A stretch of 64,000 bases of DNA from Bacteroidia bacterium. Its GTDB lineage: Bacteria > Bacteroidota > Bacteroidia > Cytophagales > JAAEPT01. Location of the stretch: assembly GCA_030431525.1 (NCBI GenBank), contig JAUIJC010000017.1, positions 1-64,000 of the forward strand. The letters are read 5' to 3'. Shown in pieces: positions 9,001 to 64,000 of this stretch; positions within the stretch are counted from its first letter, which is position 1, and every line of letters starts with the position of its first letter. Made by a program: the position numbers and the translations under genes. The notes beneath the pieces were generated by a model, which ran no database searches, was not told the origin of the DNA, and was given only the letters and a program-made list of their open reading frames with translations.

Positions 9001-10530
9001 CAATTGAAGTAAGCGTAAGCGTTACACTGCCCGCAGTCAGATCGGCAGGGCTTGGGGTATAGGTGGCATTCAGGTCATTGACATCCGAAAAGCTTCCGGT
9101 GCCTCCAGACCAAATTCCACCCGAGGCAATGGTTACCGAACCATTTAGGTCGATGCCGTTTCTGATTTTACAAAGGGTTTGATTTGGGCCTGCATCCACG
9201 GCTGGAGATGGCGTGAAGGTTATCACCATCTCATCTGAAACAGGGTTACAGTCGCCGTTTCCTGTACTTGTCAGGCTAAGAGTTAAACTGCCCGAAGTGA
9301 TTTCGGCATTGGTTGGTAGATAAGTGGCGTTCAAGCTTTGAGCATTTGGAACAAAGGTGCCGTTTCCTCCTGACCACACGCCACCCGATGCCTCACTGGA
9401 AACACTTCCATCAAGCGTGATCAATGCGTTATTCTCACAGACTGAAACATCCTCCCCTGCATCTACCAATGGCGCTGGTGTTACCGTAATCAAAACGGAA
9501 TCTTGGACCAGCAAACAATTATTGTCGCCTTCAGAAGTGAAATAGACGGTGGTTTGTCCAGCCGTCACCTCGGCATCCGAAAGGGTGTATTGAACATTTA
9601 AGCTTGTTTCATTCGGGGAAAAGCTTCCGCCATTCCCTACCCAAGTTCCAGCAGTAGCATTGACCAAACCGCCATTCAAGTCCGCCACCGGATTGTTTTC
9701 ACAAACCACAGCATCGGAACCTGCATTTACCAAAGGCGCATCGGTGAAGGTAAAGCTCACCGTATCAAAGGCTGGCTCACAGGTAATGGAACTGGAACGA
9801 TTGGCTTGCAAGATGAGCGTAAGGGAACCGCTGGCAATCTCTGAAGCCGTTGGGGTATAAACGGCATTCCTATCCGTGCGGTCTGGCGCAAAATTCCCTG
9901 CTCCACCTATCCATTCATACACATTGGCAACGCCCCCACCTTGAAGATTAATGACTGGATTATTCTCACAATAGCTTTGGTCTGGTCCTGCATCAGCCGA
10001 TGGCTTTGGCGCAAAAATAATTTCCAAGGTATCCTGAAGTGGCGGACAGGCACCAACCGAATCCACCCTTAAGAACAAGGCGATAATTCCTGCATCCCGC
10101 TCCTCCTGCGTGGGCACGTAACTGGCATCAGGAGTGAAATTATTGGGTATAAAAGTGCCTGTCCCAACCCACTCAATGGACAGCCCATCCGAAACGGTTG
10201 GATTAAGGGGAACAGACTCGGCGTTGGCACAGACAAAAATCTGAGCGCCGGCCTCAATCTCTCCAGTTTCCGTAATCCAAATGCGGGTAGTGTCATAGGC
10301 CTCATCACAAATGCCGTTATTATCCGTTCGAATCACCAAATCGGCAAAGCCCGAATCAATCTCGGCGGGTGTCGGCGTATAATCGGTGGTTAATGAGGTG
10401 GGATCAGAAAAGCTTCCATTTCCCGTCCACAAAATTGCCGTGGCATTCGTGGTCGCCGTGACACTTTGAGTGACCGACGAGGAACACATGAACACATCCG
10501 AAATGGCAACCACCCAAGGGGCAGTACTCA
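1..10530 (-). repeat. Array of about 40 Ig-like repeats, period about 264 bp
   Basis: The conserved Cys codon of each unit (near + strand CACAAA) recurs about every 264 bp, for example near 181, 713, 970, 1245, 1500, 1770, 2300, 3350, 5185, 7070, 8390, 9700, 9965, 10230 and 10484. That gives about 40 units of 88 aa. Each carries an AG(P/N)D start, a Cys, a G-x-W core, a GxGxF turn, Y-x-P-S and a second Cys near the end. Nucleotide identity between units is only moderate, so the array is old and diverged rather than freshly expanded. Confidence 0.85.
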
Positions 10531-41992: not shown

Positions 41993-42892
41993 TCATTCCA
42001 TTTTAGAAAGTGCATTTGACTTCTCCCGATCATTTTTTGCTTCCTTCTCTTTTCCAAGCTTTTCCCTAGCCACAGCCCTAGAACTATAGAAATAATGTAC
42101 TTCTGGAGAAATTTCAATCGCTTTGGAATACTGTTCTTCGGCATTGAGATAATCTTCCATATCCATATAGACATTACCCTTTCTAAAATAATCATCACTA
42201 TCTCCAGGTTGAAGAAGTATTGATCTGTCAAATGCCTTAAGAGCGTCTTCAAATCTTCCCAAAGCATGAAAAGCTAAACCTAACCCATATGGCCCTCTAA
42301 AACTAGTATTACTCTGTTCACAAAGTTCATTAAAACATTTAATAGCATCTTCTGTGTTTCCCAATTTCAATTGAGATCTCCCTTTATAATATAATGCCAA
42401 CTCATGGAGCATATCATTGAAATTTAACGCATAATTAAAATCAGAAATCGCATAACGATAATTCCCCAGATTATAATAACACATTCCCCTCCAATAATAA
42501 TCATCCTGAATCGCCTCAAAACGAATTGCTTTATTGAATTGCTTTATTGCCTTCAAATATTCTTCCATATCATAATAAAGTAACCCTTGGCAGTGATACA
42601 CCCAGAAGTTCTTTTTATCAATGGAAATTGCTTTTTCAAAAGCTTCAAAAGCTTTTTGAAATTCTCCTAGCTCCCTATAAACATTACCCATCCCTATATA
42701 AGCTTCTTTTCCTTTATCAGGATAGATTTCCCTTGCTTGCTCATACAGTATTAGACATTGGGCATGATTATTCTCAGAAAGAGCGAATAAAGAATCTGCT
42801 TTACACACTAACTGCTCATAAGAGTTTTGTGCAAATAGTCTAAAAGACATCAAACAGATTAGAGAAAATATAACAAGTCTTAAATCCATCAT
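41993..42892 (-). CDS. Exported TPR protein, translationally coupled to the RHS giant
   Basis: The 299-aa product has a signal peptide (cleavage near Leu-Phe-Ala-Gln, residue 22) and about seven TPR units in residues 30-290 (AYIGMGNVYRELGEFQKAFEAFEKAI, FRKGNVYMDMEDYLNAEEQYSKAI). Its ATG at 42892 overlaps the giant's TGA (42889-42891), so it is made with the RHS protein. TPR proteins in this position could be a secretion partner, chaperone or, less likely, an immunity protein; none can be shown from sequence. It carries no toxin or immunity family motif that I recognise. Confidence 0.85.
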   Translation of the reverse strand: MMDLRLVIFSLICLMSFRLFAQNSYEQLVCKADSLFALSENNHAQCLILYEQAREIYPDKGKEAYIGMGNVYRELGEFQKAFEAFEKAISIDKKNFWVYHCQGLLYYDMEEYLKAIKQFNKAIRFEAIQDDYYWRGMCYYNLGNYRYAISDFNYALNFNDMLHELALYYKGRSQLKLGNTEDAIKCFNELCEQSNTSFRGPYGLGLAFHALGRFEDALKAFDRSILLQPGDSDDYFRKGNVYMDMEDYLNAEEQYSKAIEISPEVHYFYSSRAVAREKLGKEKEAKNDREKSNALSKME

Positions 42893-45800
42893 TTCTTTTT
42901 AGTTGCACCTCGTTTCCTACTCGCTCTTCCACTACCAGCTCTTCGTCCTTTCCCTCGACTGTTATTCTTCTTACTTGAGTTTGTTCTTTTCTTTCCTCTT
43001 GCTATTTCCACACTCTTGTTTTTCATCGTCCTCTTCTGAGCCTTATTATCCTTCTCTCGTTGTTTATCATGGTCAGGACATTTCACCTTTCGAGACTTAA
43101 AAATCTGAGGCAACTTAATTTTTGGAAGTCGAATTATTGGCAAACGAATTTTTGGAAGTCGAATTCTTGGTAAACGAATTTTTGGCAAACGAATTTTAAA
43201 CGGCTCTATTTTAACATTAAAATCCTTAGAAGGAAATGTTTTTAAAGGCACAAGCTGCTCAAACTTTACATAAGTAAAACGTTCAATTTTGAAGCGAGTA
43301 ACTTCATCTAAAGGCGTTAAACTTACATCCAATTTTGCCCCACCTTTTTCGGCTGAAACCGCTCCATTAAAACTAACTGTTCGATCAGGTATCACTGAAG
43401 AATTTTCAACATTCCAGAGATTAGCATGATAACCCAAAGTTTGAACTATTGGTTGTTGAGACACCAAGGCCGGAAGTACATTTCGCCCATGGAAATCGAT
43501 AGACAACCCAGTCTCCTGACTAAATTCATCCCTTTTCACTAATCCCTTAAAACCTTCAGCAGTCAGTTGATGGTTCCTCCACAACATTCCTGGACTATAT
43601 CCATATTCATTGAAACCAAAGCTTTCATTTGGGTTATTATTGAAGGCCGAATAAGTGGATGGGATATATAGACTTGGGTCGTTATCTCTTAACAACCACC
43701 TACCTAATCTAGGATCATACAATCGATCGTTCACATAGGAATTACCCGCACCCTTCAATTCATCATCCTTCTCCATTCCCTTCATTCCATAACGGTACCC
43801 TCCTGACCCCACATTACTGCGGCCATTGACCAACATGCCAAATGGATAATAGTTACTGAAAGACTCTACCTCTACAGCATTGAGAAGTATGTTAGTTCCT
43901 GAACCATTTTTAGAAACAGTAGCTAATCGACGGTCGGTAATGACAGTCCGAACGTTTCCTGCATGGTCATTTATCTCATAGAGTTTATCACCAATATTTC
44001 GATACGCTAGCCTTGTAAGAGGCTTGGCTTCAAGATACAATCGATGTGGCTGAAGGCTAAGGCTGTATGCATAACCATCTGCACCAGCAACAGAGAAATT
44101 CTGGGCATTCTGAACGGAAAGCATTCCATCCTCCATCTCCTCATAAGCAAGAATACCTTGAGTCTCATCCGCAATTGTTATCAAACCATCTTTAGTTCGG
44201 CGTATACCTCCCCAAACATCAGCTTCTAACACTTGGCTTGTATCCTTCTCTTGATCCAAGAAAATAAGCGCAGTCTTGGTTACCGCTCCATTTTCCAAAC
44301 TGGCCACAACAGGGAACTTGGCAGTCAAGTAAGCTTTACCATCATGTCTTCCCCAATCAAACCCGCTTTCCTTAAACAAAGGCAATGAAGTACCTGAACT
44401 CTGATCCAAAACTTGAACCTGAGTAGTTTTCAACTCTGGAGCACCTACACCTGATGCCCTCAAATGATTTACCCCTAAAGGAATGGAAACAAAATCTGTT
44501 TGGTAGTAATCAAACCATGGGGTTGACTCCTTCATTCTCAACCAACCAAGGGTGTTACCAGTCGAATCCAACTGGAGTTCACTTCCAGCCAAACTCTCCT
44601 TGCCCTGATAATTACTGAGAACCTCTGGATTCTGACTCAGGATGTTTTCTTCAAAAGTAAAGGCTACTAATTCAGCTCCTCCAGATACCTCACGTACAGC
44701 ATATACATGGCTTATCTCCTGAACATAATCCTCATATGCTTGCAAGGAAGAACCAAAGCTGGCTCCCTCTTGATCGAGAGTTATATTGGATTGAATCAAC
44801 GCTTGGTCAGCTGGTAAAGAAGGATCAACAATATGGCCGTAGAGCTTTTGGTCTGCACCCCTAGTCACCAAAACAAACTGTTCACTATCTCCAGGTCGCT
44901 TTACAAATACTGGATTTGTCTGACCATCCGTATTAATAGCATCTGTGCCCGTTAACAATTCATTATTAGCATTCAGAAGCAAACACGCGTCATCATTTCC
45001 TAGTAATCCATCTCCAATTACAGCTGTGAACTTTAACTCTCCTGTTAGAGACTCGGCAACGGCTGTCTTAACATGGTCAGCAGTTAACTCCAATACAAGA
45101 TTCCTAGAGAACGTAGCATTAGTTTCATCATAATTCCAATGATACAATGCTTGGTTGGTAAGAAGATTTCCACCGATTACAACATTCTCTTGAGATGCAC
45201 TAAACAGGTTAGTGTTCTCAGTGACACGCCTCCAGTTCTGCTGATTTAGCAGGAATACATCCTCATAGTCTTCTCTACGGTAATCGAAGGAAGCCACAAA
45301 CTCATTGGGTAACCACAGGCCCTCAATTTTTTCTCCATAGAGTGACCCCTCCAACAATTTAACCGTTGCAGTCAACTGATTTGGTGAGTTTGTATCTAAC
45401 ACTCGATCAGTCCGCTCATAGATGGCCAAAGTGTTTCCAGAAACGTCATTGACATATGAGGTAACCGTGATATCCTCATAGTTGCTGACCAACGTATCCC
45501 CATTCTCATCATAAGGGCGATGGTTAACAATCTTCTTCACCCTATTGCCATTAGCATCATATACAAATCGGATATGAGGCTTCTGTTCTATAGAGTTGGT
45601 ATCAGGAATTATTTCATCGATTTCACCATACAAGTTCCAAACATAGGTCAAACCTTCCTGCTCGTCCCTTACCAAATCGCCATTATGATTGTACTTGTAG
45701 TTATCCCCTGCCTGTCCAGCATCTATATCATCTGGGAAGTTTCCGTCTAGACTCGCATCATCCGAAACACTCACCAACCTATTTGTTAAAGGCTCATAAT

Positions 45801-48800
45801 TATAGAAGAGATTATCCATGCGCAAAGCATTCACCCCACTTCCATAGCCAAAACGATTGACATTAATAAAATTGCCATTTGCGTCATAGGAGTAAGAAGT
45901 CCTTAAAATATCCCCTTGGGACGCATAGTCATTCCCGTCATGGAGATAGTAATTACTCGCCCTCAAACGGTGGTTTTTATCATAGACATAGGCATATCCA
46001 TTTGGCGAAAGTCCTTCTGAGCGCAAATTCCCAATTGCCCCTGATACCAGACCATTGTAATACTGACGATCAAGGCTCATGGAATAAGACGTTCCCACTG
46101 AGAAGTTATGATTAGTGGTCAAGCCTCGATCAAAATCTCCCTGATAATAGAAAAGGGAATAACCGAACTCATCAGAAAGATATCCATTGGTTACGCCATC
46201 ACCTCCCAAATCATCCAACCCAGAAAGACTGGCGGAATTCAAGCCCTTGATTGCCCCATTTATCGTATAGATATAATCCAACCCTTGAATCAAATCTTCA
46301 CCAATCTCCTGGCGTTTCAATGGACCGTGGGCATAATAGCTGTACTCAAAATCACGATCCCAAACCAACTTGTCTCGAGACGTTTCAACCCTTGTCAATC
46401 GGTTTTCCGAATCATATTTGAAACGGTGATAAAGAGCATCCTGCTGGCCTGCATTAAAGGCGGTAGATTTTAGATTACCCGTTAGTAGGTTATAGTTAAA
46501 GTCTACAGCATACCTACCCAAGCTAGGCACCTCTTGAAGAATCCATTCAGTGTTGGCATGAGGATCATAAGAATAGAAGGTATAGGCCTTCTCTCCATTC
46601 CCATTAACTCGATAGGTATAGCTTAGTTTACAACCAGTATTCCGCTGAAGTTTGCCTTGGTTAGAAATCCAATTAGCAGGCTTATCATACACCAAGTAAG
46701 TTGGCTCATTGACCTGCTGTGGGAAGCTTTGATCAGCAATCTGTGCAGGTGTGAAAGACAATGCAAAAGAATCACTTGGTGTCAAATAAGCCTCTCCCAC
46801 CTCAATTAACCTGCAATAGGCATCATACTTATTATATGAGAAACGGTTAGCAGGTTTTGGATCAAAGGCAGACCCCAATCGTTGCTCTGTGGTTTGTGCA
46901 AACCTCAAGAAACCTTCCTTACTGTAGACATAATGAGTTTCTTCTCCATCTGGTGTCTCGTTACGGAGTATCCTGCCAATGGAGTTAAAATCACTTTCAG
47001 TAATAAAGGTATGGTCAGGAGCTACACTCAAATTATTTCCAACATCATCGACTCCCTTAGGTGGTACGTAGCGGACTTGGTTACCCCCACGGTCATAATA
47101 ATACAACTCAAAGTTGTGCAAGCCTTGGGTGTACTGGATGGACATCTTGTCCTGAAGCGTTGCAACATTGAGGCAATTCAACTCAAACTGTTCCTGCATC
47201 TGAGCCTCTTGATCCTCCTCACATTTCTGAAGTTGGTTATTGATCTCATCAATTGCCTGTTGGGCAACAATTTTTGGGAAAGAAGGCTTTGTCCATGGTT
47301 CTGGAGTATTCGTCTTAACCCTTGGACCAGTCCTTTTAGACCCAGTCCATCGCATACAAATATCAAAAGATCTTGCAGGAGCCTGCTCCACGGTAAACGG
47401 ATCGGAAAGGTCTGTGGTACCGTTGATGTCAATGACCCGCACAACATAGGTTCCCGGAGGAAGCTTCACTACCGGATCCAAATTGGACAGATCAAAAGTC
47501 TCATCATTGGTGCGTGGGCTTTGGTATTCCACCCTGCTGGTCCCATCGGAGAGTTGACGAATAAACTCGTAAACATAGCCCGGTGTCCCAGAAGCCTCCA
47601 CCACAGTGGCAAACCCTGTACAAATGGCATTTGTGCCGGCCGTTTCAATAAGTACTCTTGGCAGCCTTCTCACCCGCATATCGGAGTAGGTTACCGCACA
47701 GCCAGCCGGATCGGTTACCGTCACGCTATACGTTCCTGCAGGGAGTGCATTCTGCTCGGCACCATTTCTCTTAACACCATCTTGATCGGTCCACTCGTAG
47801 GTGAACGGACCTACAGCCCCGTAAGCCAAAGCATTGATATGGCCCGGCTCCATCTCCTTCACCACTTGAGGAACGACCTTGAAGCCATCGACCTCATCAA
47901 TGGTAAAGCTTGTCTCTCCGGAACAGTTGTATTGGTTATCGGTAACCACTACCCTGTATTCTCCGGCGTTCAAGAATTTTATCTGTTGAGTTTCCTCCAG
48001 ACTCTCACTGGCAAAAGGCACATACTGCCCGGATTCATCTTTGCGCTCCCAAACGTACTTGTAAGCCGTAGGCGCTGGACTGGTAGGAGTTTTACTTAGG
48101 CTGACGTTTATCGTAGCCTTGTTATTTCCCGTACCACAAGTGGATCCGAGTTGAAGCTGGTTCGAGACGTTAACAGTAGGCGTTTTCACCTCGAGCTCCT
48201 TGCTCAATTGACATCCATCAGCCTTGGCCTCTCGAATTTCCAAAGTCAAATCCGGGCCGCTGGCAATGTTGCTGAATTCCTTGTTTTGACCGTAGGTAAC
48301 AGCCGTCCAGCTCGGATAAGCACCTGAACCCTCCAAACGATACTCAAAACCATAACCGTAGTTGGCCCCTCCAATAGTGAACTCCACTTGGGCGTCGTTG
48401 CCGGGCACGCAAGAGGAATTGGTACTTGAAGCTGACAATGTTGGCCCGGCGTATGGGACAACGGCAGGTCGGCTACCCACACAACCATTGGCATCTTCTA
48501 CTGCAATCCAATAAGTTTTGTTGTCTAGGTCTTCAAGGGTGAAGTTGGTGGCAACTACGGCTTGTTCAGTACCGTTATTGACTTGATAGGTGTTATAGGA
48601 ACCTGAGCCTCCTGAAATGGAAACTTCAACGTAGCCATCTTCCTTATCGGGGCAGGAAGTCCCCTGTATTGTTCCGAAAGAAATTTGAGGACGTGGACGC
48701 ACCCCAACGCTGTAGGCTGTAGAGGCTTGACAGCCAAACCCGTCCGTTACCGTCAATTGATAGTTAGTAGATTGAGCTGGGCTTGCCGAAGGATTAAGTA

Positions 48801-54800: not shown

Positions 54801-57800
54801 AATACCTATTAGAATTTCCTGGAATATACTTGTCGATATTATTCGACAGAATGGATAATCCATTTATTCCACAATGGCTTGATTGAATGTCAAAAAGGGC
54901 CTTGAGACTTGAAGGTGAATCCAGCCAAATTTTAACCCCAGGAACAGAGAACTGCCCCAAGTGCTCTGAGGCATCAATCAAAATATAATTTGTCAATGCA
55001 GGAAGCTGCTCAACATTAGAAATGTTAATCTCCATCGGCTCGGCAAAGCGAATCACCGCTGGGTCCGTTGGCGTGGCCACATGACAAACATTCCGATTCG
55101 CCTGATCAATACACCAAGGCAAAGAACCTTGTACTGTTACGTCATTGGAGTTATTGGTTACTAACAACTCACAGGTTGGGGAAACTTCGACTTCCTCGCT
55201 GAAGCCAGAAGTATAACCAAAAGGGCTGGTATCAGAAGGAAGGTGGGTAACCTGGGCGACAAGCTTGCCTGAAAACTCTCCCAAATTCGCACTGAAGTTG
55301 AGCTGCCCGTCTCCTGGCGAATCATCTGAAACAGTAATTGGGACGGCCTGCAAATCCCCATATACCATTAGGCCATATTGGTCTGTTGCATTCCGAATCG
55401 ACAACTGGGAATTATCATCCGTCAACTCGTATAGAGAAATCGTATAATTCTGAGGATTTTCGTCACCCAAATGAACAGGAATCACGCCAGTAAGACCTCC
55501 CTGAAGGTTAATCTCCGGCGACTGAATATCACTGTTTCCTCCAGTTGTCAAATCATAGACCGTGGACAAGAAGGAATACTGCCCCGCTAAGTGATTGTTT
55601 AAAAATTGAATCTTTTCCGAACCACCATCAATATCTATTAATCGCCTTGACCCATTATTTCCAAAAACAAACAGATTCTCTTTACCTGGCTCAACACTAC
55701 CGATACGAATATTTCTAGAACCAGAAATATCAATTTCTCCACCTTGGTTTGGTGAAGGTGAATATCCCCATGGTTCCTTTGTTGCGCCAAACCAAGTACC
55801 TTTAATTACGATATTATCCGCATCAGAAAGCTTAATTCCTCTTTGTTCTCCGCCTACAATTATATTTGGAGAAGAGGCACTCCCCTTAAGCGAAATATTC
55901 GATGAGTTTGATACCTCGATACCGTGGGAATTATTTGGGCGAACATTCCAACCTAAACCAATATGAGTCCCTGAAATTTCAGCAGAGAATGTTGTTGATC
56001 TACAACTCGAAAACTTAATAGCACTCCTATTGCAATTTACAATCTTATTTGGCACACCATTAAACGCACTAAACTTCAATGATCCATCAAAAGAGTTAAA
56101 ATACGTACCATATCCCTGAATTGGCAAATCCTGAGCAGTACTACTACTACCGTAATACCCCAATGTATTCCCTATAATCTCAACATTTGGAGCTCCGCTA
56201 ACCAAAAACTCAATTGCATTACCATTAATAGCCCCAAAACTATTCTCCTCAAAGCGGTAAAAAGAGCCCGAATGATCCCCCAAAAAATAAAACCCTCGTC
56301 CATTTAAATCATCAGATGACACTACAGCTCCGTTAGGCCCATTTGGTTTGAACCCAAAATAATTCTTCTTAAACGTCAAATTAGAATTAGAAACAGAACT
56401 CAATTTTGCCTGATAATTCCGTGCACCAACAAGCACATTGTCTTGAAAAACCCCATCATTACCAGCCCCACTCACATCAAAACCAAACTCAATATAATAA
56501 GGAGTGTAATTATAAACACCAAAATCATTCCTGTAGAATTTACAATCTAAAACCCCATTTATCTTCACCCCTATCTGAACATTAAAAACTGTGTTTTGCT
56601 CAAGAGTTACTCTTTCTGCTCTAATCAAATGAAAACCATTTTGAAAAAATGGAGACTGAAAAGTAGATATAGTACTAGGCGGACCTACAACACCAATAGT
56701 ATTTTGTTTAACTAACGCACTATCAACCTCAGCTAAACTAATTGCTGTATATCCTTTCTGAGACCCAGGCTTACTCGCAAAAGAATTCCCTGACACCTCC
56801 AAACCCCTCAATCCATACGCCCCGTCAACCGAAATACCCCCTCTATTTTCCGACTCAAAATAACCCAAAACAGAATAATAGCATCCAAAAGTATTATTAT
56901 TAACCCTAATATCTGAAACAGTCTCATCCACCTTATTAGCCACTGAAATCGAAGAGGAAGAACTAGAGAAAAAATGGTTATTATTCACTAACGCACCAGA
57001 GAAATCTCCAGTAATCAATACAATACCTTGCTTTTGCGGATATGAAACAAATGAATAACTACCTAAGTTTTCCAAGAACTCTCCACCAAACATATTTCTC
57101 TCAATACGCAATCCTTGAATAGAACCTCCTGCCACAAAGTAATCCGCCAATCCTTCTTTAAAACCTGCAATATTACAATCTAACAGGGAAAAACTTGGGG
57201 CGTTTACAACAATTCCAGGATTCACATTTGGATCATCTTTACTCCAAGTCTGATAACTATTTGAAATAATAGACAGAGCCTCCACAGTACAGCTTTCCGA
57301 CTTAATTCGAAATGCAGCTTTGGATTTCACCAATGATTCAATTCGAAGTCTAATACCTGGAATATTGAATTGCCCAAGAAGATCAGACCCATCAATGTGC
57401 ATTGGTTTAGTCAAATCAGGAATCTGATTCACTGAAGTAAACAGTATTTCCATCGGCTCGGCAAATGTAATCCTCACTGGATTACTAGAACCTGCACAAC
57501 TATTTTGGTTTGCTTGAGCAATACACCACGGCAATGAGTTGGTAACATTGACATCATTCGAATTATTCTGCACCACATACTCCATATTTCCACATGGAGA
57601 AACATGGAATATCTGAGAAAGTACAGAAGTCTGACCGGAAGCAGATGTTGCTGTTAATACATAGTCACTTCCATCATAGGCATTAAATGAACTATCAGGA
57701 AGTGAAATTGAAAAACTGCCGTTAGTTGCAACTCCTTCTGCTAAATACCATAACGCATTCCCCTGAACACCATCATTATGATATACGTGTATTATGTCTC

Positions 57801-58848
57801 CCACTTCTGAAGTACCAGAGAGTGTAACCACACCATCAGTTACTGTTGATGTGAGAGAAGAATAAAGAGGTGGATTTTTATAATTAGAATACTCCTTGTA
57901 AGTAATACCGTAGTTTCCAGTTACTGGACCATTATTAGTTATATGGTTATAAACAATTGAATTACCTGTTGCTGTTGATATTACCAAAACCCCGTTAAGT
58001 CCATTATTTATAATTGTATTGGGTTGGTCTTTCTTACCTATAATGTTGTTATCACCAAAAATGATGATTCCGTCCTTATTAGTGATACCAGAAACGCCTG
58101 GTTTTTGCCCAATATAATTGCCATAAAGACTATTGCTATTGCCACTAAGATTCAAAGCATTTCCTTGCGATGTCCAAATTCTATTGTCCTCCACTGTACA
58201 GCCATCAGCCATCAAGTCAAAGGCGTTAGAAGCATCATAAATTGTATTACCTCGGATAATATGATTTAACCCACGGATGGTTAAGGTAGATGTAATGCCT
58301 AGAGGGTTGTCCTGAGCATCTACCCCAAACAAGTTGCCTTCAATTAAACAGTCAGTAGATTGACTGCCCAAACCAAATGTGACACTGTTAGAAGCAGCGA
58401 ACACATTTTCAAGGATAGAAATGTTTTTATAGTCATTACTAATCGCAATGGCTGAGGGAAAATAGAACTCAAGCCCCTTTATCACAACCCCATCTGCCTT
58501 TACAGAAAAAGCAGAATTCAAGTTAGTTCCCGTGTATTTCAACTTGATCTTGGGCTGTCCCAGCATATAACCATTCTGAGTAGATGCATCAATAGTCACC
58601 TCTCTAGTTAAATCGCCAAGACCTGAAGTCAACTCAATAGTTTGAACCGTTCCACCTGTATTTGGTACAGCAAACTCAATGCGATCATAGGCACCAGCAT
58701 TAGCTTGGGCTATAGCATCCCTAATAGTTCCTTCACCTGAGCCGATACCATCCGTGGACGTTACGATATAGGTTTGTGCACTTAAGTTTCCAATGCCAAA
58801 GCAAAGCATCAAAAAGGCACTCCAAAAAACGCTACTTGTCAACTTCAT
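42889..58848 (-). CDS. Giant beta-helix / PKD / RHS-repeat surface protein
   Basis: From ATG 58848 the product is 5319 aa; an in-frame ATG at 58890 would bury the signal peptide (MKLTSSVFWSAFLMLCFGIGNLSAQ) and is rejected. Residues 25-3220 hold four related modules: parallel beta-helix turns followed by a beta-sandwich. Modules 2-4 start with VTNNSNDV-type cysteine-linked motifs and SLPWCI near residues 418, 1226 and 2051. Residues 3222-3830 hold PKD- and SprB-like domains. From 3830 to about 5080 there are YD repeats (YYYDRGGNQ, YDANGNRVKK) and an RHS core, RLYDPRLGRWLLRDNDP, near 5043. The last 240 residues lack a known toxin, ending in KIRLP repeats and a basic tail. Size and modules suggest a surface or secreted shell protein; an intertoxin role is inference. 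Confidence 0.9.
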   Translation of the reverse strand: MKLTSSVFWSAFLMLCFGIGNLSAQTYIVTSTDGIGSGEGTIRDAIAQANAGAYDRIEFAVPNTGGTVQTIELTSGLGDLTREVTIDASTQNGYMLGQPKIKLKYTGTNLNSAFSVKADGVVIKGLEFYFPSAIAISNDYKNISILENVFAASNSVTFGLGSQSTDCLIEGNLFGVDAQDNPLGITSTLTIRGLNHIIRGNTIYDASNAFDLMADGCTVEDNRIWTSQGNALNLSGNSNSLYGNYIGQKPGVSGITNKDGIIIFGDNNIIGKKDQPNTIINNGLNGVLVISTATGNSIVYNHITNNGPVTGNYGITYKEYSNYKNPPLYSSLTSTVTDGVVTLSGTSEVGDIIHVYHNDGVQGNALWYLAEGVATNGSFSISLPDSSFNAYDGSDYVLTATSASGQTSVLSQIFHVSPCGNMEYVVQNNSNDVNVTNSLPWCIAQANQNSCAGSSNPVRITFAEPMEILFTSVNQIPDLTKPMHIDGSDLLGQFNIPGIRLRIESLVKSKAAFRIKSESCTVEALSIISNSYQTWSKDDPNVNPGIVVNAPSFSLLDCNIAGFKEGLADYFVAGGSIQGLRIERNMFGGEFLENLGSYSFVSYPQKQGIVLITGDFSGALVNNNHFFSSSSSSISVANKVDETVSDIRVNNNTFGCYYSVLGYFESENRGGISVDGAYGLRGLEVSGNSFASKPGSQKGYTAISLAEVDSALVKQNTIGVVGPPSTISTFQSPFFQNGFHLIRAERVTLEQNTVFNVQIGVKINGVLDCKFYRNDFGVYNYTPYYIEFGFDVSGAGNDGVFQDNVLVGARNYQAKLSSVSNSNLTFKKNYFGFKPNGPNGAVVSSDDLNGRGFYFLGDHSGSFYRFEENSFGAINGNAIEFLVSGAPNVEIIGNTLGYYGSSSTAQDLPIQGYGTYFNSFDGSLKFSAFNGVPNKIVNCNRSAIKFSSCRSTTFSAEISGTHIGLGWNVRPNNSHGIEVSNSSNISLKGSASSPNIIVGGEQRGIKLSDADNIVIKGTWFGATKEPWGYSPSPNQGGEIDISGSRNIRIGSVEPGKENLFVFGNNGSRRLIDIDGGSEKIQFLNNHLAGQYSFLSTVYDLTTGGNSDIQSPEINLQGGLTGVIPVHLGDENPQNYTISLYELTDDNSQLSIRNATDQYGLMVYGDLQAVPITVSDDSPGDGQLNFSANLGEFSGKLVAQVTHLPSDTSPFGYTSGFSEEVEVSPTCELLVTNNSNDVTVQGSLPWCIDQANRNVCHVATPTDPAVIRFAEPMEINISNVEQLPALTNYILIDASEHLGQFSVPGVKIWLDSPSSLKALFDIQSSHCGINGLSILSNNIDKYIPGNSNRYLGIQLYDGYFTLENTTIGGFPKSLSNYDSSPLHGVLIKNNRFGISLESNGSGGYTWVDQPTGSHIYFFHVDFSNFRMEGNFLTGDLGNAVSLEVNDQVADSVVIDRNYFGGFYNVFGKYSGTTNGISIKGSGATGKVKKVYITNNSFESKQVETSAIELVASEDCLVERNNIGFAGPPFTIQATEMFSYGLLLTGDRIDVLRNTVLNSEKGMYFYGTEDVKVQGNTIGEYSYQLFPCEIGIGDYGNNRNLLIGGEESSQKNRIIATSSVGIYFLSKNSTVDVIGNDIGFKVVGGTNPLLTYDLSGDGIKFFGYSSEGLKVKIHDNIIGGVNNGIVTNLLNISDDMENPSIEITGNQIGYTSDYTGLDLPNKGYGMSFYSRCGEHIVTSKDGSSNVIVNNALGGIYVRGSASYPRFTVSLEGVNVGKAFNGGGPKIRGNGGNGITFQNAHNVYLGPSSDGRKSTIADSEGKGIFIGGGSENITIEGTYLGSTPTAGGIISVANAGGEIFITDQAKNIRIGADTFDNGKENEFYFDHGTTPSKVVEIGSDDVSGVSFRNNKIRGVYANLNDIYTLTSAANANIEAPVYTTTNKTVSGVIPVHLSDENPATYKVDLYELDADNSVFLNFDFNGYQGFAGNYSLLTGVNLVVSDAVSGDGQLEFTATLSDTLLGKSLVANFTHYPTNEAPAGYTSPFGIPSQVVDGCVYWVTNNSQDENIVGSLPYCINQANANACFVATAEDPAVIRFKEPFKIDFTSKNNLPALQNFITIDATEWMVNGEPEVEIFNVGGAGSFTSLLKIHHDYCTVKGLRILSESNEVYGSSPSWDEGVSILGSNITFEYNALAGFEYAFRTFNSGVVDSVHNLRITNNKFGYAITPGSGQVEFYSGNGVISLVEKDFKDIVISNNSFYDVNRLMIHFQLSNSLLAERVTIANNKFGLPDELKTYSSLEENDRVMQLSRIKDLSILGNVMDNVRSGGYIGNCLNVQLKDNTFGSDTWGISETGFSAAVCENMKVSENTFLGKYTEGLRVSKMTGLVVENNLFDGTDYDGLQQSGEIGLHISSSISDGEPTDYLIQNNQLFGHSGAQVKTSTMDPAADITITNNIIGYSKLANGTILSSTGNGIEIFERNWARDDYKLTIGPGNYIAGNQLNGIDLIWSDSKNISIEGNVFGLDKDEETQIGNGENAIYLQNVKGLVNIHKDNRIFGSADAGIRVKNCFDADFRLSISDNHIGLDLDDQAYGNQLGIVVESSKNITIEKNFISGSKEGVEITGYNNQNIAIDENYFDLSHNKNTIMPYMRDAILMGGENNQVAIGANKGNFISASRDGINIIASKNSTYDIFNNQIVSQGYGRSGLFIGYDEYDNTGWENVDLGGTTVNVGGENKGNLVAGWSRNGIDIFKVDSLGLNIYSNELGALGNLSLPGGNTIPAKGFGRDVFTVDTALALTVNFGGEGDLANTVIGKGRDALNFTEVQSSLLSINGNRVGITAAGELDQEYQGGRNGLYFTGNFTGTRTAISTNNIVGHGGTGVSIFGTLKGEFVLEANQIGLVDGQAYANKGNGVELIFNSDRLLQGLEGETQVRIGGVDKGLENIISGNLGREVSIQYADDAPISILNNFIGFKQGGEETLSSAYSALYVYESDNVWIGRDHETDQVGGNYIFSNSQYDAQVQIINVDGGLFQGNFVGLNKADEVQESQAPYGLAISYSQDVLVGGENEEANAVVGNVYGGVSLQGIETENIQLSENRIFGNQNLYGESIYFGPNNFQVNKGVRKPLIDEESNEIAIFGIIDPQDPVTQAGDVIQLFESREDGKNDAFRLINAEPIVVYDDNGTLRWRYEQPATPFLGDVVATVTHAYRKGSPYGSTSRLSKKTGVDECGTVVFSFDKLCVGQPTLFTEESTGPKDASTTYTWSINGIEVGQGTTLPYQFNGKGVYTVKLEVDNGNCVKQDTKTYTLGDPLQVIGTDSYSICAGEATVLPPTTAGGSGTLKYQWSPAAGLSNAIVLNPSASPAQSTNYQLTVTDGFGCQASTAYSVGVRPRPQISFGTIQGTSCPDKEDGYVEVSISGGSGSYNTYQVNNGTEQAVVATNFTLEDLDNKTYWIAVEDANGCVGSRPAVVPYAGPTLSASSTNSSCVPGNDAQVEFTIGGANYGYGFEYRLEGSGAYPSWTAVTYGQNKEFSNIASGPDLTLEIREAKADGCQLSKELEVKTPTVNVSNQLQLGSTCGTGNNKATINVSLSKTPTSPAPTAYKYVWERKDESGQYVPFASESLEETQQIKFLNAGEYRVVVTDNQYNCSGETSFTIDEVDGFKVVPQVVKEMEPGHINALAYGAVGPFTYEWTDQDGVKRNGAEQNALPAGTYSVTVTDPAGCAVTYSDMRVRRLPRVLIETAGTNAICTGFATVVEASGTPGYVYEFIRQLSDGTSRVEYQSPRTNDETFDLSNLDPVVKLPPGTYVVRVIDINGTTDLSDPFTVEQAPARSFDICMRWTGSKRTGPRVKTNTPEPWTKPSFPKIVAQQAIDEINNQLQKCEEDQEAQMQEQFELNCLNVATLQDKMSIQYTQGLHNFELYYYDRGGNQVRYVPPKGVDDVGNNLSVAPDHTFITESDFNSIGRILRNETPDGEETHYVYSKEGFLRFAQTTEQRLGSAFDPKPANRFSYNKYDAYCRLIEVGEAYLTPSDSFALSFTPAQIADQSFPQQVNEPTYLVYDKPANWISNQGKLQRNTGCKLSYTYRVNGNGEKAYTFYSYDPHANTEWILQEVPSLGRYAVDFNYNLLTGNLKSTAFNAGQQDALYHRFKYDSENRLTRVETSRDKLVWDRDFEYSYYAHGPLKRQEIGEDLIQGLDYIYTINGAIKGLNSASLSGLDDLGGDGVTNGYLSDEFGYSLFYYQGDFDRGLTTNHNFSVGTSYSMSLDRQYYNGLVSGAIGNLRSEGLSPNGYAYVYDKNHRLRASNYYLHDGNDYASQGDILRTSYSYDANGNFINVNRFGYGSGVNALRMDNLFYNYEPLTNRLVSVSDDASLDGNFPDDIDAGQAGDNYKYNHNGDLVRDEQEGLTYVWNLYGEIDEIIPDTNSIEQKPHIRFVYDANGNRVKKIVNHRPYDENGDTLVSNYEDITVTSYVNDVSGNTLAIYERTDRVLDTNSPNQLTATVKLLEGSLYGEKIEGLWLPNEFVASFDYRREDYEDVFLLNQQNWRRVTENTNLFSASQENVVIGGNLLTNQALYHWNYDETNATFSRNLVLELTADHVKTAVAESLTGELKFTAVIGDGLLGNDDACLLLNANNELLTGTDAINTDGQTNPVFVKRPGDSEQFVLVTRGADQKLYGHIVDPSLPADQALIQSNITLDQEGASFGSSLQAYEDYVQEISHVYAVREVSGGAELVAFTFEENILSQNPEVLSNYQGKESLAGSELQLDSTGNTLGWLRMKESTPWFDYYQTDFVSIPLGVNHLRASGVGAPELKTTQVQVLDQSSGTSLPLFKESGFDWGRHDGKAYLTAKFPVVASLENGAVTKTALIFLDQEKDTSQVLEADVWGGIRRTKDGLITIADETQGILAYEEMEDGMLSVQNAQNFSVAGADGYAYSLSLQPHRLYLEAKPLTRLAYRNIGDKLYEINDHAGNVRTVITDRRLATVSKNGSGTNILLNAVEVESFSNYYPFGMLVNGRSNVGSGGYRYGMKGMEKDDELKGAGNSYVNDRLYDPRLGRWLLRDNDPSLYIPSTYSAFNNNPNESFGFNEYGYSPGMLWRNHQLTAEGFKGLVKRDEFSQETGLSIDFHGRNVLPALVSQQPIVQTLGYHANLWNVENSSVIPDRTVSFNGAVSAEKGGAKLDVSLTPLDEVTRFKIERFTYVKFEQLVPLKTFPSKDFNVKIEPFKIRLPKIRLPRIRLPKIRLPIIRLPKIKLPQIFKSRKVKCPDHDKQREKDNKAQKRTMKNKSVEIARGKKRTNSSKKNNSRGKGRRAGSGRASRKRGATKKK
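43111..43197 (-). repeat. 15-bp tandem repeats encoding IRLPK-type pentapeptides
   Basis: Five to seven units of about 15 bp (such as AATTTTTGGAAGTCG and AATTTTTGGCAAACG) encode consecutive (I/K)RLP(K/R) pentapeptides near residues 5218-5247 of the giant. Units differ at a few bases, and the array is in frame with no stop. Confidence 0.9.
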
Positions 58849-58947
58849 TGTTGTATTCAAAAAAAGCAACCGCTTAAAATTCTCAATCAAATTGTAGAAA
58901 TGGCTAACCAGATAAAACTATCTAAAACTGGTAGCCACAAGCTTCAA

Positions 58948-61900
58948 TTAGTCTTTCTTCACCTCAATTTTTATTGGAACAGAGGCCTTCTCATCCAAGT
59001 CATTATTTGGGTCTGGATCAACTAACTTCCCTTCGCACCCATCCTTATCAATGTCATTATTACAGCTCCCTCCAAACGTGGTCTGGCCTTCTTCCCCCTC
59101 ACACATCGACGGCAAATCAAATTCCATATCCCACCACATAGCTTGGTCCCACAATAACTGTTGACAAGCTGTACCAAAGTATGTTTCACTAAGGTTGTCT
59201 TCCACCGTAATCTCCAATGCTGTCGTAAGGGGATTATTTGGGTCAAAACCTGTAATGTTAGGCTTGATAAGTAGGCACTGTTCCTTGATTTCACACACAG
59301 GATAATCAGGTTCATCACCCAGCTGACACTGAGCTTTGCAAATGTTTTCAACCACTTCATCGACAATGGCTTCAACATCGGCCTCCGATACCACCGCAGG
59401 ATTTGTACCGTCATAGCAACCATCAAATGTGTAGCAACGGCTTAGGAAGGCCTCTCTGACACGAGCCCTTACTTCTCCTCTCCTTTCGTCGCAACCTGTT
59501 TCGCAAGTTGAAATCAAGCGATCCCGCTCATTCTTCAACTCCTGCTCACTCGGACAAAACTCCTCGTCATCGGATTCCTCAGGGTCTGCATGCACATAAT
59601 TATCTGCACACCCTTTGAATTCAGCAATCTGATCACAGGTCCAAGTCCTAAAACCTTCTTCATCTTCACAAGGCTGTTCATAACAAAGAGGTGTTCCAGG
59701 ATTTTCCTGAATTGCTGTCTGAATGATGTTATCGTACATTGAAGGATCAAAACAGAGCATTTGCTCACAAGGAATAGAGCTATAACGGCGATAGATGTAA
59801 TACTTGTAAGAGAACATAAATCGGCCCTTCCCTACTTGATTAAACTCAATCTCATCCTTCTCATAATTGGCATTAACCGTACTCAACTCCTCTGTTTCCC
59901 AGTAATGAGGCACATTCCATAAAACTGACTTACCAATTATTCCTGAAGGACCAACATAGTGCTCAAGCACAATAGCCACATGCTGATAACCGATACAATC
60001 AATAAACTGAATAGCCAAATCATCTTGATATCCAGGAGTGGAACTACTCTCCTTCTCCATCTTCTCATCCAAGCCCATAAGGCCCAAGAAAATCTTAAGA
60101 ATCTTAGGATTGTAATTGTCTAAAAAGTGATCTCCAAAGTCTGATCCTTGCCCAGAACCTGTTCCTGCATATCCTCCCTGATTTGCGTTTTCATTGTATT
60201 GTTTTACAATGATTGAAACAGCATTCGCCTGGTTGATAAAGCACTTCCAAACATCTTCACACTTATAAGGCTCACAGAGATCCTGATCGGTCAACATATG
60301 ATATACCAAGCGATTCATATCCCCCTGGCGGAAACCTGTTTCCTTGAAAGCCAAATCATACACCCCGTCAAATAGGTGATAGTCCTCATTGGCCACTACA
60401 GTCTCCCAATCAATAGGGTTATTCCCATCAGTTGAAGCGATGGAATTAATCAAGTATTGCTCGACGTCCCATTCCTTAATAGCAAAATTCCCTGGATAGA
60501 ATTGTTTGTTAAACGCTATCCAATCCATCACCCCTCCACTCTCAAAATCAGAAGCTGGTCTAATCAACCCGTCGTAGGCACTTAAGTCCTCTGGACATTC
60601 ATAAGCCCCGTTATCCACTCCAATACCCACATCAATGCTTCCACAGCAACTTGTCGAAATAGAAAGGGCTACAGGCTTATCTGGCTCCTCCTCTGAATAA
60701 GTCAGGTTTAGATCTAAATCATCCGCAACGGCATCAAAGTCAAAATCATCAAGATCAAAATCAGGTTTGAACTTGGCTGCCTCTTGACGAATCATCTCGT
60801 ATTCTCCATTCTTTAACCAGTTCTGAACATCCTCAAAGGTGTTGTAAGCCTCCTCCATGTCCTCATCATCCTCAACCCCCGCAAAAATCATCTGGATAAA
60901 GGTGGTAAACGGTGTAATTTTCTCGTCAATATTGGCACTTAGGTTCTCATTGACCTCAACGGTAGGATCGTTTACAAAAAGATGTTTTTCCACAATAAAG
61001 GTTCCTGGGCCCACATTCGCACCTGCAAAAGGATCCCATGCTTCCTGCAACCTCATATAGCTTCCATCACACGCACTAAGCTCCATCGTATCAGACTCTA
61101 CAACCTGACCCGTTTCCAAGTGAAAAACCAAAAACTTCACTTTGTACTTACAGGAAACTCCACCACAACCGGCATTTTGACCATCATCTCCAGCACAACT
61201 CAGCTGGTAGTCCACCATTAGTGGTGAAGGCTGTGTTAATGGAATTCGCTTAGAACTAATAAATTCATCCCCCCTCAACACACTAGTAGTTACTTCATCA
61301 GTCACCAATTGTGAGGCTATCGGACCGTCCAAATCAACCAATGCCGTATCATCGCTCAAAGCCAAGGCCTTTGCAATAATATTTCCTGCATTGTCATAGT
61401 AGGTTACAGTAGCTGTACTGTTTTCATCAAGCTCCACCTCCTTAAAAGTGCGTTCGGCAAAAGGAGTCTCATCACCAAAAACGCGCACTAACTCATCTGT
61501 AGTTGGCGTTCCGTAATATCTTCGGGTCGTATGTCCATTTCCCATGGTATGAGCTTCTCCTGGTAAGGCAAGCTCATTAAAGCGATTGGTACCATCAGCC
61601 ACCCAAAGGCCTCTACCATAAGGATGCCCTTTGGCATTTGGTATCGTTTGATCTGGATTGTTGTTTGAATAATAGGAATAGGCCTCCGGATTGATATCCA
61701 ACACCTTAAATGGACTTTGATAAGTTGTATCCGCATCAAAATGCTGGGAATGAAAAACAGCATTATCATCAGCCTTCATAAAGTCTTGCTGATACCCTTG
61801 AATTCTGCCATTGACTGGAACTGGCAAGCTTTTCATAGCCTCTCTACCAGAGTAGTCGGGAACAGTCTGTTTAATAAGAGTCTGATCATCAGAAGACTGG

Positions 61901-63180
61901 TAATACTGCTCCTGTCTGAGTTGTTGAACATCGGAATAATAATCGACCTCCTCAGACATTTGAGTTCCTCCCCCATAGGTCCTGCTTACCTGATAATTGG
62001 TACCAGCATCCGGGTCATCAAAATAGAGAAAAGCTGAATTACTAGCATCTAATAACAAATTAGACTCTAAAGACACTGAAGGATCCAAGGGTAACGGATT
62101 CAATAATGGAAGCCCTTGAAGAGGTGCCCAAACGGAATTGAAATTCGTCCCTGCCATACCAACATCACCTTCCGTCATTGGATATAGACCCCAGTTAGCA
62201 CTATTAGCATAGCCTCCAGGATAATACGTTCCTACCGGTCTTACTCGCCACGCATAGTAACCAGACCCTTCTGCCAAAGGTAATGTTAGCAATGTATCAC
62301 TGCTCTTTGTCTCGATAGTTAAAGCTTGACTCCAATCCACAACAGATTCAAAACCAAGAGGCCCTTGAGCAAGTTGTTCAGGCAAAATATTCCCCAACTT
62401 AACCAGCTGAAACTCATAGTTGGGAAATTCCCAACCTTGGTTGTCCCAAGCAAAAGTGACATTTCGATTCGTCACATTCCTGTTGCTAGGTACGGCATGC
62501 TGAATAACAAAAGGCGGAGTCAGCTTAGTTGCCAAAGCATCTCTATCCCTCACATCAATTTCATACTCATACTCATAAGAAACCTGTAGCCGAAGCGCAT
62601 TAAATAATTGATCTGCCACAGGAACAAGAGGAGAATTCGGATTCAAAGCATTGGACCTGTTGACAATTAAATCCGTCACTCCAAAAGAGGTGAATTTATC
62701 AATGTCCTTGGTGATATCTACCTCCAAAATAGCTCTTGGCTGCCCCTCAGTAATAGTAATTGTTTGAATTGCTCCTGGACCAATATCAAACAAGCCTCCT
62801 CCATTTACTCCTTTTACAAAAAAAGTGGTGACAAACTGAAAGTCAGGATTAGGACTTGGATCGCCAAACTGATAGACAGGCCCCATATCCAACTGAATCC
62901 GAACCACAGCTTTCTTAACCTTATGCTTTAAATCAATTTTTGGAGGAAGGAAAAGTACTGGACTTGGAAGCTGGTAATCAGGAATATTGAGATTAAGAAA
63001 ATCAACCCCAATTAAACTTGTAGTGACGTCAATATCTCGTTGACACCCACAAGTTGAATTTTCGCAACCACCATTATTCCACCCAGGAGCACAGACACCC
63101 ACTTGGGCCAACAATGAAAAGGTTTTGAAGAAGAGTAACAATAGAATAAAAGCGCCCTTCTTCGGCAAAGACAAAAACAT
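58948..63180 (-). CDS. Large exported cysteine-rich protein, partner of the RHS giant
   Basis: The 1410-aa product has a signal peptide (MFLSLPKKGAFILLLLFFKTFSLLAQ). A Cys cluster follows at about 29-46 (CAPGWNNGGCENSTCGCQ). Residues about 60-360 look like a beta-sandwich region; 360-680 resemble the leader segment of Bacteroidetes RHS proteins, with a YD-like motif VTYYDNAGNIIAKALAL near 593. Residues about 1138-1381 hold about 20 Cys, likely disulfides. The C-terminus has CNNDIDKDGCEGK, like the Ca-binding motif at the start of the 1-12655 protein. It ends 99 bp before the giant's start. A missing RHS repeat and a shared leader suggest a split system in which this protein cooperates with the giant. 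Function unknown. Confidence 0.85.
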   Translation of the reverse strand: MFLSLPKKGAFILLLLFFKTFSLLAQVGVCAPGWNNGGCENSTCGCQRDIDVTTSLIGVDFLNLNIPDYQLPSPVLFLPPKIDLKHKVKKAVVRIQLDMGPVYQFGDPSPNPDFQFVTTFFVKGVNGGGLFDIGPGAIQTITITEGQPRAILEVDITKDIDKFTSFGVTDLIVNRSNALNPNSPLVPVADQLFNALRLQVSYEYEYEIDVRDRDALATKLTPPFVIQHAVPSNRNVTNRNVTFAWDNQGWEFPNYEFQLVKLGNILPEQLAQGPLGFESVVDWSQALTIETKSSDTLLTLPLAEGSGYYAWRVRPVGTYYPGGYANSANWGLYPMTEGDVGMAGTNFNSVWAPLQGLPLLNPLPLDPSVSLESNLLLDASNSAFLYFDDPDAGTNYQVSRTYGGGTQMSEEVDYYSDVQQLRQEQYYQSSDDQTLIKQTVPDYSGREAMKSLPVPVNGRIQGYQQDFMKADDNAVFHSQHFDADTTYQSPFKVLDINPEAYSYYSNNNPDQTIPNAKGHPYGRGLWVADGTNRFNELALPGEAHTMGNGHTTRRYYGTPTTDELVRVFGDETPFAERTFKEVELDENSTATVTYYDNAGNIIAKALALSDDTALVDLDGPIASQLVTDEVTTSVLRGDEFISSKRIPLTQPSPLMVDYQLSCAGDDGQNAGCGGVSCKYKVKFLVFHLETGQVVESDTMELSACDGSYMRLQEAWDPFAGANVGPGTFIVEKHLFVNDPTVEVNENLSANIDEKITPFTTFIQMIFAGVEDDEDMEEAYNTFEDVQNWLKNGEYEMIRQEAAKFKPDFDLDDFDFDAVADDLDLNLTYSEEEPDKPVALSISTSCCGSIDVGIGVDNGAYECPEDLSAYDGLIRPASDFESGGVMDWIAFNKQFYPGNFAIKEWDVEQYLINSIASTDGNNPIDWETVVANEDYHLFDGVYDLAFKETGFRQGDMNRLVYHMLTDQDLCEPYKCEDVWKCFINQANAVSIIVKQYNENANQGGYAGTGSGQGSDFGDHFLDNYNPKILKIFLGLMGLDEKMEKESSSTPGYQDDLAIQFIDCIGYQHVAIVLEHYVGPSGIIGKSVLWNVPHYWETEELSTVNANYEKDEIEFNQVGKGRFMFSYKYYIYRRYSSIPCEQMLCFDPSMYDNIIQTAIQENPGTPLCYEQPCEDEEGFRTWTCDQIAEFKGCADNYVHADPEESDDEEFCPSEQELKNERDRLISTCETGCDERRGEVRARVREAFLSRCYTFDGCYDGTNPAVVSEADVEAIVDEVVENICKAQCQLGDEPDYPVCEIKEQCLLIKPNITGFDPNNPLTTALEITVEDNLSETYFGTACQQLLWDQAMWWDMEFDLPSMCEGEEGQTTFGGSCNNDIDKDGCEGKLVDPDPNNDLDEKASVPIKIEVKKD

Positions 63181-63209
63181 GTGACTGGATTCTGTAAAAT
63201 TGTTTGAAT

Positions 63210-63938
63210 TTAAACTCCTCGTCGGATGACTTGATATCCTTGGTATTTCCTTAGCAGGTTCCCCTTACTATCAAACACCTGGCTTAATGCATTCTTTCTG
63301 CTTTTCTCATCCTGCTTAACCTCAAGACGTTCAAAAGTGGTTGAGGTCTTCTTTATTTTCTTATTAGGAAGAAAATGGGAGTCAATCTTCACCACTCGAT
63401 GTTGCTTGGTATCAATAAAATAATCCACCCTCCCTAAACGCGTGCGGCTCTGCATTTCCTTGGAAGGTGCTGTTTTCACCAACAGTAATGGCCTTCCAGC
63501 AAGCGTTGTGGAAACCGAAGAAAGAATCTTGGAAGACCTCACTAAGCTATCTTGAAGTGCAAAAACTTGCTCAGATGAAATCTTCTTTCTTTCCTTTAAA
63601 CTACTCTTGGTCAGAATAACTGCCCTTTTATTGTGCATGACCACCACTGCAAGCTCTTCATCCTGGTGCACCTCCATATCATCCCCAATTAGCTCGTAAT
63701 AATGGTTTGATAAATGATGTTTCTGACGATCAACCATATAGGTAATCATAGAAGCTTCAGGATATAAAAAGGTCTCTTGCTTGAGCTCCATTTCCAATAC
63801 CTGCCCCTTCTCCAAGCGCATCAAATTGGCATTGGCACGAACACAGGCCATTAACTCTCCCCGAGCATCCAGTTGCACAAAAGCAACATGAATGAATATC
63901 CCAAGGCATGCCCCAATCACTACTAAACATTTCTTCAT
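63210..63938 (-). CDS. Exported protein of unknown function opening the RHS locus
   Basis: The 242-aa product has an N-terminal hydrophobic segment (CLVVIGACLGIFIHVAFV, residues 4-21) that may be a signal peptide. The middle and C-terminal parts alternate strands and basic turns (VDYFIDTKQHRVVKIDSHFLPNKKIKKTSTTFERLEV), a pattern loosely like LolA-fold carrier proteins, at low confidence. It lies 29 bp before the 1410-aa gene on the same strand, so it is probably the first gene of the locus, and the 62 bp to the right edge may hold the promoter. Confidence 0.75.
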   Translation of the reverse strand: MKKCLVVIGACLGIFIHVAFVQLDARGELMACVRANANLMRLEKGQVLEMELKQETFLYPEASMITYMVDRQKHHLSNHYYELIGDDMEVHQDEELAVVVMHNKRAVILTKSSLKERKKISSEQVFALQDSLVRSSKILSSVSTTLAGRPLLLVKTAPSKEMQSRTRLGRVDYFIDTKQHRVVKIDSHFLPNKKIKKTSTTFERLEVKQDEKSRKNALSQVFDSKGNLLRKYQGYQVIRRGV

Positions 63939-64000
63939 GTCCTGTACACTTAAGGGCGAGTTGCCATGTTTGTATGTTTCTCCACAACTGTCTGTCGACC

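Follow-up and report, generated by a model that had tools for sequence, protein, structure and literature searches.

A conserved Bacteroidota gene cassette that probably encodes a polymorphic RHS toxin with its shell split between two secreted proteins

INTRODUCTION

Rearrangement hotspot (RHS) proteins form shells that enclose a toxin chain in a closed cage. We describe here a locus for a putative toxin of this kind in the 4.24-Mb genome of a Cytophagales bacterium (assembly GCA_030431525.1). The stretch that was analysed, referred to as the window, is the first 64 kb of the 102,937-bp contig JAUIJC010000017.1 (labelled C29). The gene set is named, from 5′ to 3′, OmpH–Z–A–B–C–D–E, where B is a protein of 242 amino acids (aa), C a protein of 1410 aa, D a giant protein and E a 299-aa tetratricopeptide repeat (TPR) protein. 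The locus is probably one copy of a conserved multi-gene Bacteroidota cassette that makes a polymorphic RHS toxin, with the shell split between the two secreted proteins C and D.

Several described systems resemble parts of this arrangement. The TcB–TcC cocoon of the Tc toxins is an RHS shell made of two polypeptides, as is predicted here from homology, and it shares with the cassette an SpvB-like start on the upstream gene and a variable effector following the Rhs core. The cassette differs from it in belonging to Bacteroidota, in being split after a Cys-rich domain and in having a signal peptide on every piece. It also adds OmpH, lipoprotein, LolA-like and A genes, and TcA was not detected in what is a weak test. 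The RHS/YD polymorphic toxins (Zhang et al. 2012, PMC3482391) have RHS repeats, an Rhs core, a hypervariable C-terminus and often a small downstream gene, all of which recur in the cassette. Unlike these toxins, the cassette has a shell split over two proteins, a conserved multi-gene set around it and a very long β-helix/PKD/SprB N-terminus on the second half.

Three further systems are more distant in organization. The TANFOR polymorphic toxins of Bacteroidetes (PMC7073777) are likewise large Sec-exported Bacteroidota proteins of organisms that bear a type IX secretion system (T9SS), whereas the cassette has an RHS shell and different neighbours; identity with TANFOR toxins was rejected, there being no TIGR02542 match in the genome. 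In the Neisseria MafA–MafB pair (PMC3482391), a conserved lipoprotein gene lies upstream of an exported polymorphic toxin, as it does here, but the proteins are apparently unrelated (they are set apart by description only) and no RHS shell is split. The Rhs effectors of the type VI secretion system (T6SS), including RhsA, RhsP and Tse5, have the same RHS shell fold and core, whereas the cassette proteins carry Sec-type signal peptides. A T6SS effector was also rejected as an identity, since the sheath gene was not found in the genome (no T6SS_VipA match). By overall comparison the cassette is of the RHS polymorphic toxin kind, with a real chance that its delivery route is new. No description of the whole cassette was found in the open-licence literature on polymorphic toxins, Tc, RHS and LolA.

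RESULTS AND DISCUSSION

The gene set is conserved in order across Bacteroidota

A first-pass annotation of the window had described four minus-strand open reading frames (ORFs) of 242, 1410, 5319 and 299 aa (the third counted from ATG), with gaps of 29 and 99 bp followed by a 4-bp overlap, all encoding exported products. The frames and their spacing are confirmed, and each product starts with a signal-peptide-like hydrophobic stretch, as judged by eye. The extent of four genes does not hold: the set comprises at least six, and the operon continues past the end of the window, which cuts the locus. The same contig read beyond that edge contains three further genes on the same strand, nearly without gaps (Table 1). 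The A gene lies ~11 bp upstream of B, and the OmpH-like gene, with a product of 181 aa, overlaps Z by 20 bp.

The series OmpH–Z–A–B–C–D–candidate immunity gene is a conserved Bacteroidota cassette that recurs in the same order. C has matches in 43 of 291 Cytophagales genomes, and a scan of species genomes with a narrower alignment of C found 80 further named loci of its family, in Cytophagales, Flavobacteriaceae (Aquimarina, Flagellimonas, Maribacter, Joostella), Crocinitomicaceae, Chitinophagaceae, Marinifilum and others. Where C and D are separate genes (split-type loci), A is found upstream of C in 41/42 and B in 39/42 loci with flanks of more than 2.5 kb, and Z in 30/33 loci with flanks of more than 8.5 kb; in fused-type loci the counts are 30/30 for A, 17/30 for B and 10/22 for Z. 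Z is present in 41 of the 291 Cytophagales genomes, 37 of which also have C, a co-occurrence with a Fisher p of ~6e-36; this value assumes independent genomes and ignores their relatedness. An independent search with B placed 21 of its 23 strong matches directly upstream of C on the same strand. In 41 loci, Z is directly adjoined or overlapped by an ORF of the size of OmpH, and all four of those tested are Pfam OmpH proteins.

Across Bacteroidota, the 1410-aa and 242-aa proteins are thus conserved neighbours of the RHS protein in the same order, and their homologues are not mostly found apart. The earlier idea of a bipartite or four-part surface system, perhaps undescribed, is supported in outline and enlarged, the number of genes being greater than four.

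Related cassettes occur elsewhere in the same genome. One, on contig C60, combines A and a fused C–D protein of 3969 aa with a 235-aa gene at the place of B and a 233-aa ORF; the other, on contig C57, has Z, A and an RHS protein of 1671 aa, which an ORF of 299 aa overlaps by 11 bp. The Bacteroidetes metagenome-assembled genome nzgw115 contains at least ten paralogous fused cassettes (L112, L121, L128, L129, L131, L132, L138, L139, L141 and L147), an extreme local expansion. A complete split cassette with a short D (1949 aa) lies on a contig labelled Candidatus Brocadia (Planctomycetota; L087), reflecting either transfer or a binning error.

C and D as halves of one RHS polypeptide

Judged by homology, C and D each correspond to one half of a single ancestral RHS polypeptide, and about half of the relatives encode both as a single protein. 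The C and D regions are colinear within one polypeptide in ~30 relatives. Two of these, L128 and L147, are natural compact fusions that join C directly to D with neither linker nor stalk. The colinear segments have 23–43% identity to L128 in every segment (54–59% for L147). C is therefore neither always fused nor unrelated to RHS genes: it is fused in about half of the relatives and separate in the rest. Matches of C to DUF6443 are weak but consistent, occurring in 16 of 19 C proteins, and the YD-like motif noted in the first-pass annotation lies within this DUF6443-like region. The Cys-rich tail described there is also borne out, with 24 Cys in residues 861–1410 compared with 10 in residues 1–860.

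The tail locates the break. A hidden Markov model of the tail matched 0/33 fused proteins, as if the tail were confined to split proteins. Profile–profile comparison overturns this view by showing partial homology between the tail and the linker that joins the two regions in fused proteins (hhalign probability 99.2, E = 1.4e-19), a linker that also has conserved Cys columns. The split therefore lies after the Cys-rich domain, and D starts afresh behind it with a signal peptide of its own, followed by a stalk. When C proteins are placed on a tree, 34 of the 35 split rows group together in a single clade with a support of 99; two changes of state between split and fused suffice, compared with 23 in shuffles.

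These data bear on whether the locus is simply a one-gene RHS toxin of the ordinary kind that a mutation has broken in two, next to genes that have nothing to do with it. Relatives that keep C and D in one chain do exist, as such an origin would predict, but 34 rows of one clade, drawn from many families, share the split, D carries a signal peptide and a stalk of its own, and the surrounding genes are conserved. Synteny, the co-occurrence of Z with C and the tree largely refute such a breakage, which we regard as very improbable.

The two genes are not always adjacent. At one locus (L035:8363-9856), a 497-aa FG-GAP protein with a T9SS sorting domain is encoded between split C and D, and at another (L050) two genes of 650 and 675 aa occupy this place.

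A fused relative is predicted to form an RHS shell

The C–D fusion L128 is predicted to form an RHS shell resembling TcB–TcC. Its residues 62–1261 were modelled with a predicted local distance difference test score (pLDDT) of 80 and a predicted template modelling score (pTM) of 0.79. A Foldseek search of this model against the PDB returned RHS shells throughout, including mosquito SGS1 with a query TM-score (TMq) of 0.53, T6SS Rhs proteins and teneurins. The match to TcdB2–TccC3 has a TMq of 0.45–0.47, with root-mean-square deviations mostly of 8–10, compared with a TMq of 0.37–0.39 for TcC chains alone. We infer from this gain that C may fill part of the TcB position.

D itself follows the order β-helix, PKD-like stretch, YD repeat and Rhs_assc_core (TIGR03696, E = 9e-5, below its cut-off), and the core and repeat scores of the present copy are near the cut-offs. 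A D-family profile of the RHS part matches solved RhsP, Tse5 and RhsA, and the TcC protein YenC2, with E-values down to 3e-10. The right-handed β-helix occupies four stretches (Pfam Beta_helix, E = 4e-19). Modules 2–4 are tandem copies (34% identity over 794 aa between modules 2 and 3, E = 1.7e-100), to which module 1 is only weakly similar. The proposed combination of a four-module β-helix stalk with an RHS shell is borne out, but the stalk is not a defining feature; it is the variable part of the protein. The D N-terminus is a β-helix here and in L037 and L045, whereas it carries PKD modules in L036 and L038, SprB in L060 and other modules elsewhere. An insert of ~440 aa (44029–45348, minus strand) separates the RHS repeats of D from the Rhs core; it appears β-propeller-like by eye and is absent from shorter relatives.

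The resemblance of D to TcC in both sequence and fold, together with the A family, in which 8 of 18 members have an SpvB-like start (best 4e-5) and 13 of 18 match DUF6531, could indicate a true Tc (ABC) toxin. A would then be TcB-like and D TcC-like, with the TcA translocator encoded elsewhere in the genome. A has no match to any solved structure in the PDB profile search, solved TcB included. The TcB-binding domain of TcA (PF18276) has no match in the genome, a weak result in that the control also matched nowhere. To our knowledge, the signal peptides and the C, B, Z and OmpH genes have no counterpart in Tc loci. We consider a Tc toxin of this type improbable.

Hypervariable C-termini and the candidate immunity gene

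The sequences that follow the Rhs core of D have the signature of polymorphic toxins: among 45 different D C-termini (median 272 aa), only 4 of 990 pairs are similar once the edge of the conserved core is removed. A same-strand ORF lies within 100 bp downstream in 25 of the 45 D genes. The sister cassette on contig C60 ends in a CDI_toxin_EC869-like domain (E = 5.5e-4, below the cut-off), with its 233-aa ORF beginning 3 bp later. The locus thus differs less from known RHS toxins than the first-pass annotation had stated, since it does have a separate hypervariable C-terminus. The caution of that annotation about toxin activity stands: the D C-terminus would be the toxin, and the 299-aa protein its immunity protein. 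The 299-aa protein is here recognized as a TPR protein, a correction to that annotation, and its gene looks locus-specific, a candidate immunity gene and not a core member of the cassette.

The same region can be viewed in another way. Teneurins use a YD shell in cell adhesion, and the RHS shell and β-helix/PKD stalk could likewise form a structural adhesin, part of a surface or adhesion system without toxicity in which the C-termini would vary by surface antigen variation. The very long, adhesin-like stalk of D, the teneurin shells among the Foldseek matches and the present D C-terminus, which lacks a toxin signature and follows a degenerate core-adjacent motif, all agree with this view. The C-termini, however, differ as whole blocks of 200–300 aa behind a conserved Rhs core, and the frequent small downstream ORFs and the sister cassette with its end resembling a contact-dependent inhibition (CDI) nuclease form a polymorphic-toxin pattern. 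An adhesin is unlikely on balance.

Several observations weigh against a toxin with a split shell at this locus. The 247-aa D C-terminus has no Pfam match and no toxin match, and it is rich in KIRLP repeats and Lys/Arg. The NNP motif after the core is kept, but the D-x-x-G behind it reads NEYG. Given the missing toxin match, the KIRLP-rich basic composition and the lost Asp, the present copy may be non-toxic or processed differently. The close downstream ORF accompanies only those 25 of 45 D genes, and E has a signal peptide and no match to a known immunity family. The B copy at this locus scores below the LolA family cut-off. The window's own C, predicted alone, gives a poor model (pLDDT 57, pTM 0.40), so the proposed shell role of C rests on the fused relative; this low-confidence model was not used for fold searches. 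No outer-membrane export route was found for A, C or D.

Across 290 other genomes, the D C-terminus has matches in just 2, all of them short and repeat-like. It consists of tandem (K/R)IRLP units followed by a Lys/Arg/Ser-rich tail that resembles a histone-like or nucleic-acid-binding tail.

Neighbouring proteins and export

OmpH/Skp proteins are periplasmic holdases, and the OmpH-like protein of this cassette is a member of Pfam OmpH (E = 1e-24, 88 bits, cut-off 32). Z has an invariant Cys at the lipobox position. By profile comparison, B is a divergent relative of LolA. Of 36 family members, 8 match LolA3_fam (best 5e-9), and the B profile used in reverse finds genuine LolA proteins in genomes that have no cassette. 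In Flavobacterium johnsoniae, deletion of LolA3 leaves gliding and amylase secretion unaffected (PMC11885536). A is strongly conserved, with ~35% identity over 2000 aa. PDB profile searches with A, B and C gave nothing convincing. A chaperone role for OmpH and B, an anchoring role and a role as a third part of the shell are proposals for these neighbour proteins, based on what is known of their families.

SprA is encoded in the genome, which therefore probably has a T9SS. A terminal T9SS sorting domain (type A C-terminal domain) was not found on A, C or D, the only match being a weak internal one in D.

A second giant gene, separate from the cassette, runs off the start of the window (2–12655, minus strand). 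Its product, of 4218 aa or more, has an FG-GAP-like N-terminus and dozens of ~75-aa Ig/CHU_C-like repeats.

Table 1. Positions of the cassette genes and of regions within C and D (window coordinates unless prefixed by the contig label)
Feature	Position	Strand	Remarks
OmpH/Skp-like gene	C29:70779-71324	-	Upstream of Z, outside window
Z, 210-aa lipobox lipoprotein	C29:70166-70798	-	Upstream of A, outside window
A, 3′ end; 2067-aa SpvB/DUF6531-like protein	63950..64000	-	Whole gene C29:63950-70153, continues outside window
B, 242-aa divergent LolA-like (putative) periplasmic protein	63210..63938	-	Profile searches
C, 1410-aa secreted protein; predicted N-terminal half of RHS polypeptide	58948..63180	-	Homology and DUF6443 matches
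C, DUF6443-like RHS start region, residues ~380-690	61111..62043	-	16/19 family members match, best 2e-7
C, Cys-rich tail, residues 861-1410	58951..60600	-	Partly homologous to linker of fused C–D proteins
D, giant secreted RHS protein, 5319 aa	42889..58848	-	Signal peptide, β-helix, PKD/Ig-like modules, RHS half-shell, Rhs core, variable C-terminus
D, β-helix stalk, residues ~25-3130	49459..58776	-	Right-handed; modules 2-4 tandem homologues
D, PKD/Ig-like/SprB-like region, residues ~3226-3830	47359..49173	-	Weak single matches; like region in split relatives
D, RHS/YD repeat half-shell, residues ~3862-4500	45349..47265	-	Family profile matches solved Rhs, Tse5, YenC2
D, Rhs repeat-associated core, residues ~4941-5072	43633..44028	-	Rhs core model matches
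D, orphan C-terminal domain, 247 aa, KIRLP-type repeats and strongly basic tail; candidate effector	42892..43632	-	No Pfam match
E, 299-aa signal-peptide TPR protein; candidate immunity	41993..42892	-	Overlaps D by 4 bp

A model for the cassette and its implications

In the model that we favour, of a polymorphic RHS toxin with a divided shell, C and D would each be exported by their own signal peptide. C would provide the DUF6443-like start of the shell and the Cys-rich domain, and D the rest of the shell, the Rhs core and a swappable C-terminal effector. Outside the cytoplasm, the two proteins would come together in trans to close a single shell in the manner of TcB and TcC. While in the periplasm, the huge β-rich chains may be held or escorted by the Skp-like and LolA-like proteins, and Z, with A, may anchor or assemble the complex at the outer membrane. 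The variable N-terminal stalk of D, here a β-helix with PKD modules, could project the shell or bind targets.

A more far-reaching form of this model is a distinct machine by which Bacteroidota deliver toxins. The RHS shell would have two or three parts (A + C + D), which would pass through the periplasm one by one, attended by dedicated Skp-like and LolA-like chaperones, and be put together on a lipoprotein at the cell surface, a route undescribed for RHS toxins. We put this forward tentatively, as less likely than not.

A conserved set in which the shell is exported piece by piece, next to genes resembling periplasmic chaperones, would bear directly on how RHS shell proteins cross two membranes without a T6SS. 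The cassette would also explain a large class of poorly annotated giant Bacteroidota genes; matches to the C family occur in the Cytophagales genomes counted above and also in Flavobacteriaceae and Chitinophagaceae.

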